Below, piece by piece: positions 2,060 through 32,838 of a stretch of DNA of 51,215 bases (position 1 is its first letter; each line of letters opens with the position of its first letter). Both the position numbers and the translations under genes were made by a program. The stretch covers positions 1-51,215 of the forward strand of contig JAPLKL010000016.1 of the NCBI GenBank assembly GCA_026388095.1, in the 5' to 3' direction. The notes under the pieces are model-generated. The model ran no database searches and had not been told where the DNA came from. It saw only the letters and a program-made list of their open reading frames with translations. The DNA is from Elusimicrobiota bacterium. GTDB lineage: Bacteria > Elusimicrobiota > Elusimicrobia > UBA1565 > UBA9628.

Positions 2060-3409
2060 GTGCCCCTGCTGAAAAAGCCTTCCCGGCTCGTGATGATCGG
2101 CCTCGGCGGGCTATGCGTCGTCGCCGTCTGCCATCGGATCTCTGCGCGCCAAGCGCCCGTGACCTTATCCGGCGAAGAGCGAGCCACCCTCCAAGACGCT
2201 GTGGCTGACCCGCTGCAAAGCGTCTTAGACCAGGCCGGGGCGGCCTTTGTCAAAGGCCAGCCTCTGGACGAAGAGAGACTCAAACGCCTGGCTCAGGCGC
2301 AGATAGCCGGTCTGCCCATGGCTTTCGACAGGGCTGGACTGGCTGGGGATTTCGAGGCCAAGCTGAAGTGCGCGGTCCTCGTCCAGCGGACTCATCCGCC
2401 CATGGACCAAGGGTCGTTCGGCCAGCTCATACGGACCGCAGCTTCCGGCCTGGGCCTCGACCGGCCTCGGACCGAGGCGGCGGTCAAGCTGTACGGCGAC
2501 CGGCTGCGGACCTTGCCGCCGGCATCGCCGCAGGACACCATCGAGAACATGGCCGCGGTCCAGGCCATCCTGCAGCGCCAGAGCCTGGATGCGAAGAGCC
2601 GGGCGCGCGTCGCGGATTTCGCCGGCAAGCTGCGCGGGCAACTCGAGTCCGGCGGCAAGCGCGACCCGGGCCTGCTGGGCGGCGAGGGAGGGGTTTTCGC
2701 CGGAGGGGGGAAGTCTCCCGGCTCGGCCGCGTGGAACAAAGGTCAGATGGCGCTTCCCCGGGCGCAGCTGCCCGCCAATCTCAGAGGGGCCGCGTCTGCG
2801 CCGCTGTCCCTGTCGGACCTGCTGCCTCCTCTGCGGCCGGATGCCTCCGGCCGCATAGACGTTTCCCGGGCGTCCCATCGTCTGCTGTCCCAATGCCCCA
2901 CGCCGGACGATGCCCTGTCGAACGTGACTCCCGCTCGGGGCGTGGGAAATGACAGCGGGGCCAGCGAAGCGACACGCCGGGAGGCGCGGAAGAAGCTGGC
3001 GGGCATGCTCAAGGTCCGCGACCAGGATCTGAGCGAGGAGTCGCTGCGCAACATGGACCATTACCTCAACGCTTACGGCGCGGTCCGGTTCACTGTCGGC
3101 GCCTCGCCCTGGATGGAGTGGACGAATGCCCGCAATCCCCAAGAGGGGGACAATTGGGCCACGCGGGGGACGCGCCGTCTCGGGCGGATGGCCGTGGGCC
3201 TCGAGGTGGCCGGCCTTTCCTGCGGCTATGAGTACTACAAATTCGTGGACCAGACCTTCGGCACCAATTACGGCGCGGTTATCGGCGAGGATTTCAAGCA
3301 CAACAGTTCTCCTGCCAGCTGGCGGGCTCTGGGCGCAAAACTGAGCGGCACTTGGAGCGGCATCTTCAACAACAGCCCGGATGGGCCGCGCAAACAGATG
3401 GGCGATTGA
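2060..3409 (+). CDS. Anchored or secreted protein of unknown function
   Basis: 449 residues. The first 30 contain KK-flanked positive charge and a hydrophobic stretch (LVMIGLGGLCVVAV), so a signal anchor or signal peptide is likely. The body is mostly polar and helical with Gly/Ala-rich linkers, and I recognise no family. GTG at 2060 is chosen because GGAG lies 6 nt upstream; ATG at 2048, in frame, is the alternative. The stop is 4 nt before the ATG of the next gene, so the two are probably co-transcribed from the promoter at 1999-2027. Confidence 0.65.
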   Translation: MPLLKKPSRLVMIGLGGLCVVAVCHRISARQAPVTLSGEERATLQDAVADPLQSVLDQAGAAFVKGQPLDEERLKRLAQAQIAGLPMAFDRAGLAGDFEAKLKCAVLVQRTHPPMDQGSFGQLIRTAASGLGLDRPRTEAAVKLYGDRLRTLPPASPQDTIENMAAVQAILQRQSLDAKSRARVADFAGKLRGQLESGGKRDPGLLGGEGGVFAGGGKSPGSAAWNKGQMALPRAQLPANLRGAASAPLSLSDLLPPLRPDASGRIDVSRASHRLLSQCPTPDDALSNVTPARGVGNDSGASEATRREARKKLAGMLKVRDQDLSEESLRNMDHYLNAYGAVRFTVGASPWMEWTNARNPQEGDNWATRGTRRLGRMAVGLEVAGLSCGYEYYKFVDQTFGTNYGAVIGEDFKHNSSPASWRALGAKLSGTWSGIFNNSPDGPRKQMGD

Positions 3410-20211: not shown

Positions 20212-20257
20212 CATAAGTGACGAGCGGAAAGAAGGTCGCTTGATGTCAGGAGGGGAT

Positions 20258-20803
20258 ATGAAAAAAGCAACGATATTGATGTTGGCGTGCGCGCTGCTGG
20301 TCCCTGCGCTCGGCGCCATGGCGCAGGAGCAAGGCGGGCCGCCAAAGGGTGAGGGGCAGGGCAAGGGACTGAAGGGGCCGAAGGGACCGTTGGCCAAGTT
20401 CATCATCGAGTTGCCCGCTGAGCATCCGATGACCACGACGCACTTCGCGGACATGATGGCGGAGCGCCTCCAGCTCTCAGACGAGCAGAAGTCCAAGGTC
20501 CAAAAGGTGATGGCAACGTCCAAGCCTGGCCTGCAGGAGAAATTCGCTGAGATACTCAAGGTCCGCAAGGAGATGCAAGCCCTGGAGAAGGACCTCTGGG
20601 ACAAGATCCGCGCGACCTTGAACGACGATCAGAAGAAGTCCTTTGGCTGGATCGATCGGTGGCCAGGGGGGCCGAGCGGGCCGGGCGAACCAGGCCTGCG
20701 CCAGGGCGGCCAGCAGGGCGGCAGGGGCGAGGGACCCGGCGGCCAAGGCCGGGGGGAGCAGCCTGCGCAGCCTCCGCAGGAATGGCCGGGCGGAGGAAAA
20801 TAG
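20258..20803 (+). CDS. Spy/CpxP-like periplasmic protein, paralog 1
   Basis: 181 residues. Signal peptide (ATILMLACALLVPALGAMAQ), then a helical core with the LTxxQ-like repeats of the Spy/CpxP family (LQLSDEQKSKVQKV and ATLNDDQKKSF), and a Gly/Pro/Gln-rich tail. Spy-type proteins are periplasmic chaperones or metal-stress sensors. AGGAGGGG lies just before the ATG at 20258; an upstream in-frame ATG (20240) would interrupt the signal peptide. Two further paralogs follow at 21044 and 23630. The low-complexity tail is unusual for Spy and may be a flexible binding region. Confidence 0.8.
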   Translation: MKKATILMLACALLVPALGAMAQEQGGPPKGEGQGKGLKGPKGPLAKFIIELPAEHPMTTTHFADMMAERLQLSDEQKSKVQKVMATSKPGLQEKFAEILKVRKEMQALEKDLWDKIRATLNDDQKKSFGWIDRWPGGPSGPGEPGLRQGGQQGGRGEGPGGQGRGEQPAQPPQEWPGGGK

Positions 20804-21043: not shown

Positions 21044-21571
21044 GTGAGGAAAACGACGATATTGTTGCTGGCGTGCGCTTTGCTGGCCCCGGCGCTCGGC
21101 GCCATGGCGCAGGAGCCGGGCGGGCCGCCCCAGGGCGAGGGGCAGGGCCAGGCACCGAAGGGGCCGCCGTCCAAGTTCATCATGGACGTGCCCACGGAGC
21201 ATCCGATGACCACGGCTGGCTTCGCGGGCAAGCTCGCGGAGAGCCTCCAGCTCTCGGACGAGCAGAAGGCCAAGTTCCAAAAGGTGATCGCGGCGTCAAA
21301 ACCCAGCCTGCAGAAGAAAGCCGTGGAGATGCGCAAGCTCCGCAAGGAGATGCAAGCCCTGGAGAAGGACGTGTGGGACCAGATCGGCGCGACCTTGAAC
21401 GACGATCAGAAGAGGTCCGTGGGCTGGATCAATCGCTGGCGAGGGCCGAGCCGGCCGGGCGAACCAGGCCTACGCCAGGGCGGCCTGCAGGGCGACAGGG
21501 GCCCGGGACCCAGCGGCCAAACCCGGGGGGAGCAGCCTCCGAAGGAAGGGCCGGGCGGAGAAAAGACTTAG
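21044..21571 (+). CDS. Spy/CpxP-like periplasmic protein, paralog 2
   Basis: 175 residues from a GTG start with a G-rich Shine-Dalgarno. The signal peptide (TTILLLACALLAPALGAMAQ), core (EHPMTTAGFAGKLAESLQLS, DEQKAKFQKVIAASKPSLQ) and second LTxxQ-like repeat (ATLNDDQKRSV) are closely related to paralog 1, as is the Gly/Pro/Gln-rich tail. It probably arose by tandem duplication including the promoter. The first conserved Phe/Met residues differ, so partner specificity may differ. Confidence 0.8.
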   Translation: MRKTTILLLACALLAPALGAMAQEPGGPPQGEGQGQAPKGPPSKFIMDVPTEHPMTTAGFAGKLAESLQLSDEQKAKFQKVIAASKPSLQKKAVEMRKLRKEMQALEKDVWDQIGATLNDDQKRSVGWINRWRGPSRPGEPGLRQGGLQGDRGPGPSGQTRGEQPPKEGPGGEKT

Positions 21572-23595: not shown

Positions 23596-23629
23596 ATGTT
23601 TGCTGACCCCGCACGGGTCGGGAGGGGAC

Positions 23630-24187
23630 ATGAAAAAGACGACGATTTTGATATTGGCGTGCGCGCTGCTGGTCCCGGCGCTGGCGGCGCTGGCGCAGGA
23701 GGAGGGCGGACCGCCGCAGGGCGAGGGACCGGAAGGGCGGCCGCCCATGGACCTGGGGATGCCCACGGAGCATCCGATGACCTCCGCGCGCTTCGCGGAC
23801 ATGCTCACGCAGCGGCTCGAGCTCTCCGACGAGCAGAAGGCCAAGGTCCAAAGCGCGATCGCGGGGTCCAAGGAGGGCCTGAAGAAGAAATTCGCTGAGA
23901 TACAAAAGGTCCGCAAGGAGATGGAAGCCCTGGAGAAGGACCTCTGGGGCAAGATCGGAGCGGCCTTGACCGAGGAGCAGAAGCGGACCTTGGACGAGAT
24001 GCAGAGGATGCGGCCCGGCGGGCCCGGCGGGCCGGGCATGCGCCGCGGCGGCGAGGGCGGCCAGCAGGGCGGCATGAGGCCCGGCGGCAGGGGCCGCGGC
24101 CGCAGGGGTCCGGGACGCACGGGACAAGGCGGGGGGCAGCAGCAGCCTCAGCAGGGTCCGCAGGAAGAGCCGGGCGGCGACCAGTAG
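23630..24187 (+). CDS. Spy/CpxP-like periplasmic protein, paralog 3
   Basis: 185 residues with GGAGGGG just before the ATG. The same architecture as the paralogs at 20258 and 21044: signal peptide (TILILACALLVPALAALAQ), EHPMTSARFADMLTQRLELS, DEQKAKVQSAIAGSKEGLKK, second repeat ALTEEQKRTLDEM, then an Arg/Gly/Gln-rich tail longer than in the others. It is the most diverged of the three, and two minus-strand genes separate it from paralog 2. Confidence 0.8.
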   Translation: MKKTTILILACALLVPALAALAQEEGGPPQGEGPEGRPPMDLGMPTEHPMTSARFADMLTQRLELSDEQKAKVQSAIAGSKEGLKKKFAEIQKVRKEMEALEKDLWGKIGAALTEEQKRTLDEMQRMRPGGPGGPGMRRGGEGGQQGGMRPGGRGRGRRGPGRTGQGGGQQQPQQGPQEEPGGDQ

Positions 24188-24297: not shown

Positions 24298-24318
24298 ATG
24301 CTCCAGGTGAGACCATGA
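24298..24318 (+). CDS. Six-codon upstream mini-ORF (MLQVRP)
   Basis: ATG at the predicted transcription start, six codons, and a TGA that overlaps the ATG of the next gene (ATGA). It may control translation of the receiver-GcvH protein by reinitiation. The only support is position and overlap. Confidence 0.35.
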   Translation: MLQVRP

Positions 24319-25121
24319 AGAAAGAATGCGACCTGCTCGTGGTGGATGACGAGCCCGCGATCACCGGCTCCGTGGCGAGGATATGCGCGGCCGAGGGGAT
24401 GACGGTCGACCAGGCGGATTGCGCGGCCGCCGGATTCGCGATGCTGGAGCGCTGCGCCTATCGTCTCATCGTCTGCGACATCAGGATGGCGGGCGTGGAC
24501 GGCTTCCAGTTCCTGTCGACGGTCGCGGCCATGCACATCTCCACGCCGGTCGTCATGGTCACCGGCTATGCCACGGTCCAGAACGTGGTGCGGTCCATGT
24601 TCTCGGGGGCCGTCGATTTCATCCCGAAGCCCTTCACCAGCGACGAGCTGCTGGCCGTGGTCCAGCGCGGTCTGCGCTACGACCAGCTGCTGAAGGAGGC
24701 GATCGCCGCCGCCGTGAAGTCGCCCCCGGGCGCGGCGCCGTATGCGTCGTGCCCGCTGGAATACCGCCGCCTCGGGCATGTCAGCTGGGTGTCCATGGAG
24801 AGCCGGGAGGCCGCCTTGGTGGGGGTCTGCGACCCGTTCGTCAGGACCGTAGGCGGGGTGCGCAGCGTCAAGCTCATGGCTGCCGGCGGCGAGATCGTCC
24901 AGGGGGACCGCTGCGCGGCGATCATCTCGGAGGATGGCTTGTCGCACGGCGTGATGAGCCCGATCAGCGGCCGGATCCTCGGCGTGAATGCCAAGGTCGT
25001 CTCGCGCCGGTCCTTGGTCGAGGAAGAGCCGTATGCCAAAGGGTGGCTGTATCGGGTCCTGCCCTCCAACCCCGAGCCCGAGTTCAATGAGCTGGTCAGG
25101 TGCCGCGTGGATTCCCTGTAA
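24315..25121 (+). CDS. Response-regulator receiver fused to GcvH-like domain lacking the lipoyl lysine
   Basis: 268 residues. Receiver domain about 1-125: D11/D12, phospho-acceptor D55 in VCDIRM, T83 in MVTGYA, K105 in IPKPF. After a linker, residues about 148-262 resemble glycine-cleavage H protein (RRLGHVSWVSM, MSPISGRILGVN, EEEPYAKGWLYRV). At the position of the lipoylated Lys (ESVKAAS in GcvH) this protein has SEDGLSH, with Gly208 in its place, so it cannot be lipoylated there. No DNA-binding domain. It probably signals by protein contact; the partner is unknown. AGGTGAG precedes the ATG. Confidence 0.8.
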   Translation: MKKECDLLVVDDEPAITGSVARICAAEGMTVDQADCAAAGFAMLERCAYRLIVCDIRMAGVDGFQFLSTVAAMHISTPVVMVTGYATVQNVVRSMFSGAVDFIPKPFTSDELLAVVQRGLRYDQLLKEAIAAAVKSPPGAAPYASCPLEYRRLGHVSWVSMESREAALVGVCDPFVRTVGGVRSVKLMAAGGEIVQGDRCAAIISEDGLSHGVMSPISGRILGVNAKVVSRRSLVEEEPYAKGWLYRVLPSNPEPEFNELVRCRVDSL

Positions 25122-26206: not shown

Positions 26207-27166
26207 ATGGCTCTTGAATCAGTGGTGGACCTGGCGCAACCCAGACCCGCGCTGTCCCCGCTGCCAAGCGCTCCGGTCCTGGCTCGGCAGGCGTCCGCGG
26301 GCCGGGATAGCCGGGGCGGGGCGGGCCTGGTCCGCCTCGCGGCGCTGGCGCTGTTCGCGGCGGGCATGGCCTCGACCGTCGCCTTCAACACCCGGCCGCC
26401 GGCGCCCGCCGCGGCCGCGCCGCGCCCCGCCGCGGTCTTCGCCGTGCGCACGCCGGCGGCGGCGCCCGCCCCGCAGTCTTTGGCGCGCACGCCCGCCAGC
26501 GGCGAAGTCCGCTCGAGCAGCCCGGTCCCGTTCTACGGAGGAGCAGACCAGATCGCCGCCGTGGGCGCCGATGCCGCCCTGCCGTCAGCGTCGAGCCAGA
26601 TCGAGACCGGCAGGCTCGTGCCGTTCTTCCAGCCGGCCCACGCCTGGCGGGAGACGGCGCAGCCGGCCCAGGCGCAGCAGGCTCAGCCGAGCCAGGTGCA
26701 AGCGCAGCCCAGGGCGCAGCTGGCCAAAGCCTTCCGAGCTCCCCATCTGCGGCCCACGGCCCACTTCATCGGCGTGACTTACGCCCGGGGTTGGGGCGGG
26801 GGAGCCCTGCGCTCCTCGGCGGTCGCGACCTCGATGATCGTCGGGGGCGGGCCGGCGAGACCTTGCCGCAACGCCCGGCCGAGGCCGGCTTTCGCCGTCC
26901 CGGGCGACGGCGGCGGGCCGCAGCCGGCGCGGCAGGCCTTCGCCGTCCCCGGCGGCAGCGGGTATGGGCAGCGGCCGGCCTTCCAGGTCCCGCAGGGCTT
27001 CGCCGTCCCCGGCGATCAGGGCGTAGCCCGGCAGATGCTGGCCTTCCAGGTCCCGCAGGGCATCCCCACCCCGGGCGACGGCGGCGGGGCGCGGCAGGCG
27101 CGCCAGGCCTTCCCCATGCCGGGCGACGGCGGCGGCGCGCGTCAGGCGTGCAATACCTGCCCCTAG
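26207..27166 (+). CDS. Membrane-anchored repeat protein with Cys-x-x-Cys tail
   Basis: 319 residues. One N-terminal membrane segment (about 41-60, VRLAALALFAAGMASTVAF) and a long Pro/Ala/Gln-rich region lead to a C-terminal run of related units: FAVPGDGGG, FAVPGGSG, FAVPGDQG, IPTPGDGGG, FPMPGDGGG, separated by short ARQA or FQVPQG spacers. The protein ends CNTCP. No enzyme motif. It lies directly upstream of the Cys-ended peptide and radical SAM gene, so it might be another substrate, a carrier or a surface scaffold; this is speculation. Codon composition is very GC-rich. Confidence 0.65.
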   Translation: MALESVVDLAQPRPALSPLPSAPVLARQASAGRDSRGGAGLVRLAALALFAAGMASTVAFNTRPPAPAAAAPRPAAVFAVRTPAAAPAPQSLARTPASGEVRSSSPVPFYGGADQIAAVGADAALPSASSQIETGRLVPFFQPAHAWRETAQPAQAQQAQPSQVQAQPRAQLAKAFRAPHLRPTAHFIGVTYARGWGGGALRSSAVATSMIVGGGPARPCRNARPRPAFAVPGDGGGPQPARQAFAVPGGSGYGQRPAFQVPQGFAVPGDQGVARQMLAFQVPQGIPTPGDGGGARQARQAFPMPGDGGGARQACNTCP

Positions 27167-27249: not shown

Positions 27250-27255
27250 TAGAGT
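27250..27255 (+). promoter_or_regulatory. Extended -10 (TGC-TAGAGT) of the peptide/radical SAM unit
   Basis: TGCTAGAGT with TAGAGT at 27250-27255. The predicted start is at or near the ATG at 27262, which opens an alternative 27-codon frame (27262-27345) overlapping the peptide gene. No convincing -35 is seen. Confidence 0.5.
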
Positions 27256-27311
27256 CGCGCCATGGGTGTGGAAGGCAATCTCAGACGCCCAAGGACGGGA
27301 ACGGAGGCGAC

Positions 27312-27386
27312 ATGCTGTTCGAGGAGCACATGGAAGCTGAAGTGAACGTCGTGACTGAGGCGCACTGCCCGGACATGGGCTGCTAG
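27312..27386 (+). CDS. Candidate RiPP precursor: 24-residue acidic peptide ending in CPDMGC
   Basis: A 24-codon gene with GGAGG 4 nt before its ATG. The N-terminal half is acidic and leader-like (MLFEEHMEAEVN) and the C-terminus is EAHCPDMGC, with two cysteines spaced C-x4-C. An intrinsic-terminator-like hairpin follows 6 nt after the stop, and then a gene for a radical SAM/SPASM enzyme with a PqqD-like N-terminus. That order (strong ribosome site, short peptide, hairpin, maturase) is typical of ribosomally made, post-translationally modified peptides. I do not recognise the peptide family. A competing frame (27262-27345) covers its start but has weaker context. Confidence 0.6.
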   Translation: MLFEEHMEAEVNVVTEAHCPDMGC

Positions 27387-27392
27387 CGTAAC

Positions 27393-27433
27393 GCCCAGGC
27401 ACTCGCGTGCACAGGGTGCCTGGGCCCCTTTTT
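27393..27433 (+). terminator. Intrinsic terminator/attenuator between peptide and radical SAM gene
   Basis: GCCCAGGCAC pairs with GTGCCTGGGC (27416-27425) around a 13-nt loop, followed by CCCTTTTT ending 2 nt before the radical SAM ATG. Read-through would give high peptide and low enzyme levels. The hairpin also occupies the space where a ribosome site for the enzyme would lie. Confidence 0.75.
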
Positions 27434-27435
27434 CG

Positions 27436-28644
27436 ATGCGGCTCAAAGACACCGTCTTCAAGCAGCTCGGCCCGGACCTGTGGATGCTCCACACGGCCAG
27501 CCCCTACAAGGTCCGGGTCAACGTCGAGACCTTGGCCCGCCTGGAGTCCTTGCTCGCCAAGCGCCCAGGCGAGGGCCTGGCGCCGGAAGAGGAGTTCCTC
27601 TACGGCAAGCTCCAGGCCAAGGGCATGGTCCTCGCCGAGCCGGGCGGCCCGGGGCAGCTGCGGCTCAAGCGCAGGAGCCTTCTCGACAACATCGAGCTGG
27701 AGTTCTCCGGCTCGTGCGATCTGAGCTGCCGCCACTGCTTCGCCGCGATGTCGGGCCGGATGATGGGGCCGGAGGTCTTCGCAAAAGTCGTGGCCGGCGC
27801 GGTGGAGCTCGACGCCGTCACGCTCATCTTGAGCGGCGGAGAGCCTCTGCTCAACCCGGGCTTCCCGCAAGCCTGCCGCCAGGCCCGGGCCGCGGAGCTC
27901 AAGGTCATAGTGATGACCAACGGCGCGCCAGTGACCAAAGAGCTCGCCCAAGGGATGCGGCAGGCCGGGGTCGCGGAGGCGGTGGTGAGCCTCGACTGCT
28001 TCCAGGAGCAGCATGAACGGCTGCGCGGCCCGGGCTCCTTCGCCGCGGCCGCGCGGGGCATCCGGCTGTTGGTCGAGGAGCGCGTGCCCGTCTACGTGAC
28101 CGCGCTGGTCACCGACGGCGGCGTCGGCCGCCTCGACGAGTTCAAGGCCTTCTGCCTCAAGGAGCTCGCAGTCTCGGGCGTCAGGCTCTCCGCGGTCGTG
28201 CCCATGGGCAGAGCCGCGCGGGGCCAGGGGCTCGGCCTGTCGGACGCGGACTTCGCCAATGTGTTCCAGGCCGACTGCGCGCAAGAGGCCGGCGAGCCGG
28301 CCAAAGGCTTCAAGTGCAGCGCGGGCAGCAGGCAGCTGTTCGTCGCTGCCGACGGTCAGGTGTACCCGTGCCGCTACTTCCAGAACCTCGGCGAATCAAT
28401 AGGAGCTTTGAACGACGATCCGCTGAGCGCCGTCTACAGGCGCAATCTGGAAGGCGGCCTCACCGGCAGCTTCGACCGCGGCTCCCTGCGGCAGTGCCGC
28501 GCCTGCCCCAAGTACGCGGCCTGCCTGGGCGGCTGCCGGGCGCGGGCCAAGCTGCTGGAGGGCGATATCAGCGCCCCGGACCCTTTCTCCTGCCGGGTCT
28601 ACGGAGTCCCGGCCCGGGCCTTGAACTCCCGCACCGCCTCATAA
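27436..28644 (+). CDS. Radical SAM/SPASM peptide maturase with PqqD-like N-terminus
   Basis: About 402 residues. The first 85 residues resemble a PqqD/RRE-type leader-binding domain (VNVETLARLESLL, LYGKLQAKGMV), by fold-like pattern only. The radical SAM core has C94-x3-C98-x2-C101 (CDLSCRHC), GGEPLL as the SAM-binding loop, and a beta/alpha barrel. The C-terminal SPASM region has Cys at about 293, 311, 353, 356, 362, 366 and 385 for auxiliary iron-sulfur clusters (VYPCRYF, CRACPKYAACLGGC). Such enzymes install thioether or C-C bonds in peptides. No Shine-Dalgarno precedes the ATG; expression may depend on read-through and coupling. Confidence 0.88.
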   Translation: MRLKDTVFKQLGPDLWMLHTASPYKVRVNVETLARLESLLAKRPGEGLAPEEEFLYGKLQAKGMVLAEPGGPGQLRLKRRSLLDNIELEFSGSCDLSCRHCFAAMSGRMMGPEVFAKVVAGAVELDAVTLILSGGEPLLNPGFPQACRQARAAELKVIVMTNGAPVTKELAQGMRQAGVAEAVVSLDCFQEQHERLRGPGSFAAAARGIRLLVEERVPVYVTALVTDGGVGRLDEFKAFCLKELAVSGVRLSAVVPMGRAARGQGLGLSDADFANVFQADCAQEAGEPAKGFKCSAGSRQLFVAADGQVYPCRYFQNLGESIGALNDDPLSAVYRRNLEGGLTGSFDRGSLRQCRACPKYAACLGGCRARAKLLEGDISAPDPFSCRVYGVPARALNSRTAS

Positions 28645-30763: not shown

Positions 30764-31852
30764 CTAGCCCAGGGCGCGGCGGAGGTCTTCCAGCAGGTCC
30801 CGGCGGTCCTCAAGCCCGACGGAGAGCCGGACCAGATTGTCCTTGATGCCGCGCTTGAGCCGCTCCCCTTTGGGCAAGGAGCCGTGGGTCATCTGCGGCG
30901 GGTAGCAGACCAAGGACTCCACTCCGCCCAGGCTCTCGGCCAGGATGAAGAGCTTCAGGCGCGAGAGGAACCTGTCCACCGCGCGCCGGCCTCCGGCGAG
31001 TTCCAGGCTCACCATGCCGCCGAAGCCGGGATAGCGGACCCGCTCGACTTTGGGATGCCTGCGCAGGAAGCGCGCCAGGCAGGAGGCGTTGGCCTGGTGC
31101 TGGCGCATGCGCACGGCCAAAGTCTTGAGGCCGCGCAGGACCAGCCAGCAGTCCCAGGGACCGGGCACCGCTCCGGCCGCGTTCTGGTGGAACTTCATGG
31201 TCTCGTAGGCGGCTCGCCGCGACGTCACCACCGCCCCGCCCACGAGATCGCTGTGGCCGCCCAGGTACTTGGTCGTGCTGTGCACAACGATGTCGGCGCC
31301 CAGCTCCAGGGGCCTTTGCAGATAGGGGCTGGCGAATGTGTTGTCCACGGCCAGCGGCACGCCGGCCGCGCGCGCGATCTTGGCGACGGCGCGGATGTCG
31401 CAGACCTTGAGCAGGGGGTTGGTCGGGGTCTCCAGCCAGATGAGCCGGGTCTGGGGCCGCAGGGCGCGGCGGAACGCTTTCGGGTCATCCGAGCTCACGT
31501 AGCTCGTCTTGAGCCCCCATTTCCCGTAGACCTTCTCGAGGAGCCGGTAGGTCCCGCCGTAGAGATCGTCGCCCGCGACCACGTGGTCACCGGGCTTGAG
31601 CAGCTCCAGCACCGCCGATATGGCGGCCACCCCCGATGAGAAAGCCAGGCCGTAGGCGCCGCCTTCCAGAGCGGCCAGGGACTTTTCCAGAGCCGCCCGG
31701 GTCGGGTTTCCCGTGCGGGAATACTCGTAGCCGCGGGGCTTGCCCACCGCGTCCTGCTGATAAGTGGAGGTCTGGTAGACCGGCACGGTCACTGCTCCGG
31801 TCTGCTTGTCCGGCTCCTGGCCGAGATGGATGGCCAGCGTCTCGAATCTCAT
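30764..31852 (-). CDS. Cystathionine gamma-synthase/lyase-family PLP enzyme, internally shortened
   Basis: 362 residues; relatives are about 380. Trans-sulfuration PLP enzyme with the Lys in [20 protein letters not shown] and [10 protein letters not shown] near the start, [10 protein letters not shown] and [10 protein letters not shown] near the end. It either makes cystathionine or cleaves it to cysteine; its pairing with a cystathionine beta-synthase (4-nt overlap) favours cleavage (reverse trans-sulfuration, H2S release). Compared with E. coli MetB, about 15 residues are missing between RVRYP and GFGGM. Last gene of an eight-gene run. Confidence 0.9.
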
Positions 31853-32838
31853 GGTTTGCTCCTCGGGCGGAAGCCGTGCTCGGCCATCCAGCCGTCGTCA
31901 TACATCTTCGAGAGATATTTGTTGCCCGTGTCGCAGACGAAGGTGACCACTCGCTTGGGCTCGCGGCTCTCTCGGCAATAGCGCAGGGCCGCGGCCAGCA
32001 GGGTCCCGGTGGAGGAGCCGGCCAGCACGCCTTCCAGGCGCAGAAGCTCCCGAGCCGTGCTCAGGCTCTCCTCGTCGGTCACGGTATAGGCCTTGGCGAC
32101 GCGCGAGAGGTCCGCGATGGGGGGGATGAAGTCCTCGCCGATACCTTCCACGAGCCAGGAGCCGGCCTTGCCCAGCGTCTTGGTCCGGACATAGCCGGCC
32201 AGAACCGAGCCGGCCGGGTCCGCCAGCACGAACTCGGTCGCGGGGCTGACGCGGGCGAAGAAGCGGCCCAGCCCGGTGAGCGTGCCGCCCGAGCCCACGC
32301 CGCAGACCACGGCGTCGACGCGGTGCTCCATCTGCTCCCAGATCTCCGGTGCCGTGCCCTTCTCGTGGGCTTCCGGGTTCGCGGGGTTGTTGAATTGGTT
32401 CACGTAGAAGCCGCCCGGGGTCTGGCGCGCCAGCTTCTCGGCCAGGTCCTGGTAGTACTCCGGGTGGCCTTTCTCCACGTCGGAGCGTGTGATGACGACC
32501 TGGGCGCCCAAAGCTTTGAGGTGCGATATCTTCTCCCGGCTCATCTTGTCCGGGATGACCAGGAGCAAGCGGTAGCCCTTCTGCGCCGCGACCAAAGCCA
32601 GCCCGAGTCCGGTGTTCCCGGCTGTGGCCTCGACCAAGGTGGTGCCGGGCCGGACCTTGCCGTCGCGTTCCGCCGCTGCGATCATGGACAGGCCGATGCG
32701 GTCCTTGATGGAGCCGCCTGGGTTCTGGTTCTCGAGCTTAAGGAAGAGCTCGCAAGGTCCGGCGTCGAGCTTCTGAGTCCTGAGCAGCGGGGTGTTCCCT
32801 ATGAGGTCCAGGGTCCGGTCAGCCTTTTTTAGGGTCAT
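31849..32838 (-). CDS. Cystathionine beta-synthase / cysteine synthase family
   Basis: 329 residues, PLP fold type II. NPGGSIKDR carries the PLP Lys, EATAGNTGLGL the phosphate/sulfide loop, and GVGSGGTLTGLGRF the PLP-phosphate loop. GSWLVEGIGEDFIPPI and the overall length are more like cystathionine beta-synthase than CysK, but no regulatory CBS-domain pair follows. It overlaps the gamma-synthase/lyase start by 4 nt and begins 1 nt after the ABC ATPase. Together the two enzymes would convert homocysteine and serine to cysteine or produce H2S. Confidence 0.9.
   Translation of the reverse strand: MTLKKADRTLDLIGNTPLLRTQKLDAGPCELFLKLENQNPGGSIKDRIGLSMIAAAERDGKVRPGTTLVEATAGNTGLGLALVAAQKGYRLLLVIPDKMSREKISHLKALGAQVVITRSDVEKGHPEYYQDLAEKLARQTPGGFYVNQFNNPANPEAHEKGTAPEIWEQMEHRVDAVVCGVGSGGTLTGLGRFFARVSPATEFVLADPAGSVLAGYVRTKTLGKAGSWLVEGIGEDFIPPIADLSRVAKAYTVTDEESLSTARELLRLEGVLAGSSTGTLLAAALRYCRESREPKRVVTFVCDTGNKYLSKMYDDGWMAEHGFRPRSKP

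Follow-up and report, generated by a model that had tools for sequence, protein, structure and literature searches.

A conserved His-Cys peptide and its proposed radical SAM/SPASM maturase form a candidate RiPP system in Elusimicrobiota

We asked what a 24-codon gene with two cysteines near its end is doing directly ahead of a radical SAM gene in an Elusimicrobiota genome, and what its product might be for. The window, the whole stretch of DNA that was analysed, has 51,215 nucleotides and is contig C16 of genome G000; other codes beginning with G and L denote genomes and loci of the comparison set. The first-pass annotation had proposed that a GGAGG-started gene ending in HCPDMGC, a hairpin followed by T5, and a radical SAM/SPASM gene make up a new RiPP locus. 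All three elements are present where it had placed them, and the locus and its conserved neighbours have the following features:

27303..27307, + strand: ribosome-binding site GGAGG of the precursor gene (from the sequence)
27312..27386, + strand: 24-codon precursor peptide gene, MLFEEHMEAEVNVVTEAHCPDMGC, with His18-Cys19 and Cys24 in the C-terminus HCPDMGC (18 peptides in 13 genomes, purifying selection)
27393..27433, + strand: hairpin (stem 27393-27404/27414-27425, 9-nt loop), then CCC and T5 (folding; a strong hairpin after 18 of 18 precursors)
27436..28644, + strand: radical SAM/SPASM enzyme, 402 aa, proposed maturase (Pfam, motifs, profile comparisons)
27436..27690, + strand: N-terminal domain of the enzyme, residues 1-85, candidate leader-binding domain (low-confidence model)
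27715..27738, + strand: CX3CX2C motif (C94, C98, C101), which binds the SAM [4Fe-4S] cluster (invariant among members)
28315..28593, + strand: SPASM domain, C294-x12-G-x4-C312 ... C354-x2-C357-x5-C363-x3-C367 ... C386 (PF13186)
30764..31852, - strand: Cys/Met-metabolism PLP enzyme of the cystathionine gamma-lyase/synthase type (CGL), conserved neighbour (PF01053)
31849..32838, - strand: cysteine synthase/cystathionine beta-synthase type enzyme (CBS), conserved neighbour (PF00291)

We place a putative leader at residues 1-16 of the peptide and a putative core, containing His-Cys and the second Cys, at residues 17-24. Among the 26 short ORFs of the window (20-50 codons with a strong ribosome site), only the precursor carries HC-x(2-6)-C, and it stands far above chance because it is conserved in relatives. 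Nearly all of these relatives are preceded by a GGAGG(T) site. The other two frames of the precursor region, examined in G000 and G050, are interrupted or dissimilar. The peptide has no convincing match to any NCBIfam or Pfam family.

A radical SAM-dependent RiPP system is expected to have an enzyme with a radical SAM core and a SPASM domain, and a conserved short precursor that co-occurs with it. Pfam finds both domains in the enzyme (PF04055, 1.8e-16; PF13186, 1.4e-06). PF13186 is present in 13 of 14 enzyme members, the remaining one being cut by a contig end, and the CX3CX2C motif and the seven-Cys SPASM pattern are conserved across members. The solved structure nearest to the enzyme profile is SkfB (E 2.6e-27), followed by anaerobic sulfatase maturase, CteB and SuiB. 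The window enzyme stays below the cut-off of every NCBIfam model. The best is StsB at 101 bits (cut-off 625), with MftC at 77 (265), PqqE at 63.5 (381) and PapB at 57 (340); no curated sactipeptide or ranthipeptide maturase family (StsB, PapB) is matched above cut-off. We saw no Shine-Dalgarno sequence in CCCCTTTTTCG, ahead of the enzyme ATG. A full-length AlphaFold model from a two-sequence input (window and L012) had a pLDDT of 41 and was not used.

The N-terminus of the enzyme had been called PqqD-like, a homology that our comparisons failed to demonstrate. Pfam PqqD has zero matches in the 14 enzyme members even at E<=1, and the hhalign score against 30 Elusimicrobiota PqqD sequences falls inside the range of column-shuffled controls. 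In a low-confidence AlphaFold model, residues 1-85 form a beta-hairpin plus helices, and Foldseek with this model returned no RRE match in the PDB. The profile alignment between the enzyme and CteB begins at query position 38, a weak hint for the N-terminal domain, and these 85 residues may bind the leader.

To define the family, we built an enzyme profile (A1) from four enzymes, which at E<=1e-50 matched 15 places in 13 genomes out of 341 searched in the phylum. Short ORFs upstream of or near these enzymes begin alike, mostly with MLFEEH, and contain His-Cys plus another Cys, and a relative of the peptide is present in 12 of the 13 enzyme genomes; the sole one in which no peptide was found, G190, has an enzyme fragment on a short contig. 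The search for short ORFs beside homologous enzymes, which the first-pass annotation had proposed, thus recovered a conserved one, and in the same reading frame. With a peptide profile (A2), strong matches (E<1e-9) came from only 12 of 336 genomes, namely 11 enzyme genomes and G197, whose 6755-base contig stops 92 nt past the peptide. Three further matches, with E of 0.001-0.03, look like chance. The diverged G008 peptide, MYFVEQNDLVVEFPEHAHCEGCGN, whose gene is followed by two XdhC-related genes and by the enzyme gene, escaped A2; our count may therefore underestimate the family. The pairing of peptide and enzyme proposed earlier is well supported, and the peptide is very likely the substrate of the enzyme.

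The closest named relative locus of the window is L012, from an Elusimicrobia MAG. It was also the single locus returned by a contig scan with strict patterns, a result that does not show absence elsewhere. Outside the phylum, a plasmid search found no close member (all <60% identity, and <35% among the matches listed), and a viral-contig scan gave one match only, at 24%. We found no paper on such a radical SAM RiPP in Elusimicrobiota in the literature within reach, which excluded most subscription papers. No NCBIfam or Pfam family covers the peptide or the enzyme. The system is by kind a radical SAM RiPP and as a family lies outside the curated libraries searched; it is a previously unnamed peptide-natural-product system of Elusimicrobiota.

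The family comprises 18 peptides of 24-47 residues, most of them 24-31, in 13 genomes. All have a short leader, an invariant His-Cys and then a second Cys. Met1, Glu5, Val11, His18 and Cys19 are invariant in an alignment of 15 peptides and are also kept in the G008 peptide and others found later. Selection on the peptide is purifying, with a pN/pS of 0.36 in its frame (pS 0.51, pN 0.18; codons 2-19, 17 peptides). C-x4-C, earlier suggested as a conserved crosslink site, is ruled out as a motif by a spacing that ranges from x2 (G035, G008) through x3 (G166) to x4 or x6 elsewhere; the invariant core element is His-Cys. In sactipeptides and ranthipeptides, a Cys thioether goes to an alpha, beta or gamma carbon of an acceptor residue; here every core has Cys, but only 14 of the 18 peptides show an acidic residue within the three places that follow the first one. 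The core occurs twice in four peptides (G207, two in G206, and G200b), and we count this for a RiPP, since core duplication is typical of RiPP precursors. In the enzyme tree, the three enzymes with duplicated-core peptides group together, the three x6 enzymes share one clade with two x4 enzymes, and the two x2 enzymes are adjacent, most of these forks having less than full support. Core type and enzyme tree thus agree in broad terms, which co-evolution of enzyme and core would predict.

The hairpin of the window (27393-27425) begins 6 nt past the precursor stop and has a stem of 12 bp, against the 10 bp first reported, with a folding energy of -25.8 kcal/mol and z = -3.2 relative to dinucleotide shuffles. 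A terminator consensus scan of the window, whose loop limit was 8 nt, did not list it, the loop being 9 nt. A strong hairpin stands behind every one of the 18 precursors (z -2.4 to -8.6), with stem sequences that differ between clades. It is also present when a gene other than the enzyme follows, and therefore belongs to the precursor. It is probably a leaky terminator or the point at which the precursor transcript ends. Rfam gave no known RNA family in the 12 loci searched. We note that a second hairpin, GGGCC...GGCCC, lies just 5' of the precursor ribosome site at loci of genus g45 (L016, L018-L022, L025, L026); both of its arms are changed in some genomes, and it has no Rfam match in the loci searched.

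What the product does has to be read from the neighbours, which are often metal-export and sulfur-metabolism genes. CBS and/or CGL are found about 5 kb or less from the peptide or enzyme in the window, G050, G008, G205, G193, G198, G166, G190 and G197, and also at two G200 loci, G199:C44 and G206 (cut by a contig end), in several gene orders and often alongside ThiF-rhodanese. CusA-type efflux is nearby in G035, G008, G205, G207, G193, G198, G200, G197 and G199:C44, and there is no CusA near the locus in the window and G050. At most loci of genus g45, a gene for a YHS/HMBD heavy-metal-binding protein ends about 60 nt upstream of the peptide. Within this genus, 6 of 9 peptide/enzyme genomes versus 2 of 22 others have CBS (Fisher p = 0.003), and 7 of 9 versus 8 of 22 have CusA (p = 0.04), both values being uncorrected for relatedness. 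No exporter or leader peptidase is consistently adjacent across loci, and there was no MNIO (DUF692) among the neighbours scanned. CBS-CGL-HMBD islands also occur without peptide and enzyme, at G189:C10 (L100, with CusA and ThiF) and G191:C72 (L101), and are possibly sulfide-linked metal-handling islands. The RiPP is therefore a part-time member of them, and linkage does not by itself prove a metal function.

Our preferred reading, to which we give a probability of about 0.68, is a two-gene RiPP system of a Cys-modified peptide and its maturase, with a product that probably handles soft metals. The precursor would be translated from its strong ribosome site, and the hairpin would stop most transcripts, so that less of the downstream maturase is made. 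The maturase would grip the leader through its 85-residue N-terminal domain and apply SAM radical chemistry to the HC-x(2-6)-C core, most likely at Cys, where a thioether crosslink or the like would form. Modification of a Cys is probable. The product would most likely bind soft metals such as copper as a small Cys/His ligand, and be made beside Cus-type efflux, heavy-metal-binding-domain proteins and cysteine/sulfide-producing enzymes; this metal role, taken on its own and judged from the neighbours, falls a little short of even odds.

In an unlikely alternative, the peptide would give rise to a small redox or enzyme cofactor, maybe tied to molybdenum enzymes or sulfur transfer, with the core crosslinked and the rest degraded. 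PqqA and MftA are precursors of small cofactors, and the PqqA/PqqD/PqqE and MftA/B/C systems share with ours a very short precursor, a SPASM enzyme and no bacteriocin-type accessory genes; most of our precursors have only 24-31 residues, and exporter and immunity genes are lacking. Every enzyme member scores with the mycofactocin and heme rSAM models, though far under their cut-offs. In G008, G190 and G199 the gene next to the peptide or enzyme is XdhC, in G166 the adjoining genes are MoeA and others for the molybdenum cofactor, and many loci have ThiF-rhodanese. The XdhC and molybdenum-cofactor genes leave a cofactor role some probability, and we counted them against the metal reading. However, most loci have sulfur and metal genes but only a minority have such molybdenum-related ones, and duplicated cores and variable Cys spacing would be odd for one fixed cofactor. 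The core here is HC..C, unlike that of PqqA, which uses Glu/Tyr, or of MftA, a C-terminal Val-Tyr; no separate PqqD or MftB gene was seen adjacent, and the enzyme is below the PqqE and MftC cut-offs.

Less probable still is a secreted bacteriocin or signal of the sactipeptide or ranthipeptide type. The likeness is in the architecture, as the SkfB, CteB, SuiB, StsB and PapB systems also place a radical SAM/SPASM maturase beside a short Cys-containing precursor; three of these enzymes (SkfB, CteB, SuiB) are among the closest solved ones and StsB is the best NCBIfam model. Unlike in those systems, the enzyme is far under every curated cut-off, and the precursor has 24-47 residues, with an invariant His-Cys, a very short core, no fixed acceptor position past the first Cys, and no exporter or conserved transporter, peptidase or immunity gene. 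Finally, a regulatory leader peptide or attenuator of the radical SAM gene, rather than a substrate, would suit an ORF that precedes the enzyme with a terminator-like hairpin behind it, but we rejected this very improbable reading since four peptides lie elsewhere than ahead of the enzyme gene (G206 and G198 each have a second one, convergent with it; G200 has one about 4 kb off on the other strand, and G199 one ahead of XdhC), cores are duplicated and core type follows the enzyme tree.

For the metal-handling RiPP that we favour, bufferins would be the closest functional analogue, made by unrelated enzymes; they chelate excess copper (PMC12452194). The likeness is that of a ribosomal peptide with a proposed copper-stress role, which is suggested here by the neighbours. 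The maturase here is radical SAM/SPASM rather than MNIO. A bolder version, which we consider less likely than not, sees in these very short Cys/His peptides a metal-handling family that is made by radical SAM enzymes and parallels the bufferins with their MNIO enzymes; it would sit in a metal-efflux and sulfide-producing island and carry a possibly unprecedented modification centred on His-Cys. If the product binds metal, then radical SAM enzymes, besides MNIO enzymes, build metal-handling ribosomal peptides. The locus also offers a clean, very small and testable pair of enzyme and substrate in a phylum of which little has been cultured. For the substrate, nature supplies 18 variants that differ in spacing (x2 to x6) and in having the core once or twice; for the enzyme, 14 sequences are at hand.

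We also noted several other genes around the locus. Just upstream of the precursor, the window has a Pro/Gly-rich ORF (26207-27166) without a Pfam or NCBIfam match; its product has FAVPGDGGG-type repeats, a hydrophobic stretch at the N-terminus and the ending CNTCP. Further upstream, at 24315-25121, is a fusion of a response-regulator receiver and a glycine-cleavage-H-like domain (PF00072 and PF01597), an unusual architecture. By eye, secreted proteins resembling Spy/CpxP are encoded in the window at 20240-20803, 21044-21571 and 23600-24187 and in L012 at 2523-3071; three of the four have weak sub-threshold LTXXQ or Metal_resist matches (none for 23600-24187), and one such gene is near the peptide in G050. 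Also in G050, an EamA-type transporter with a very His-rich C-terminal tail (L012, 6191-7216, - strand) adjoins the 3' end of the enzyme gene.
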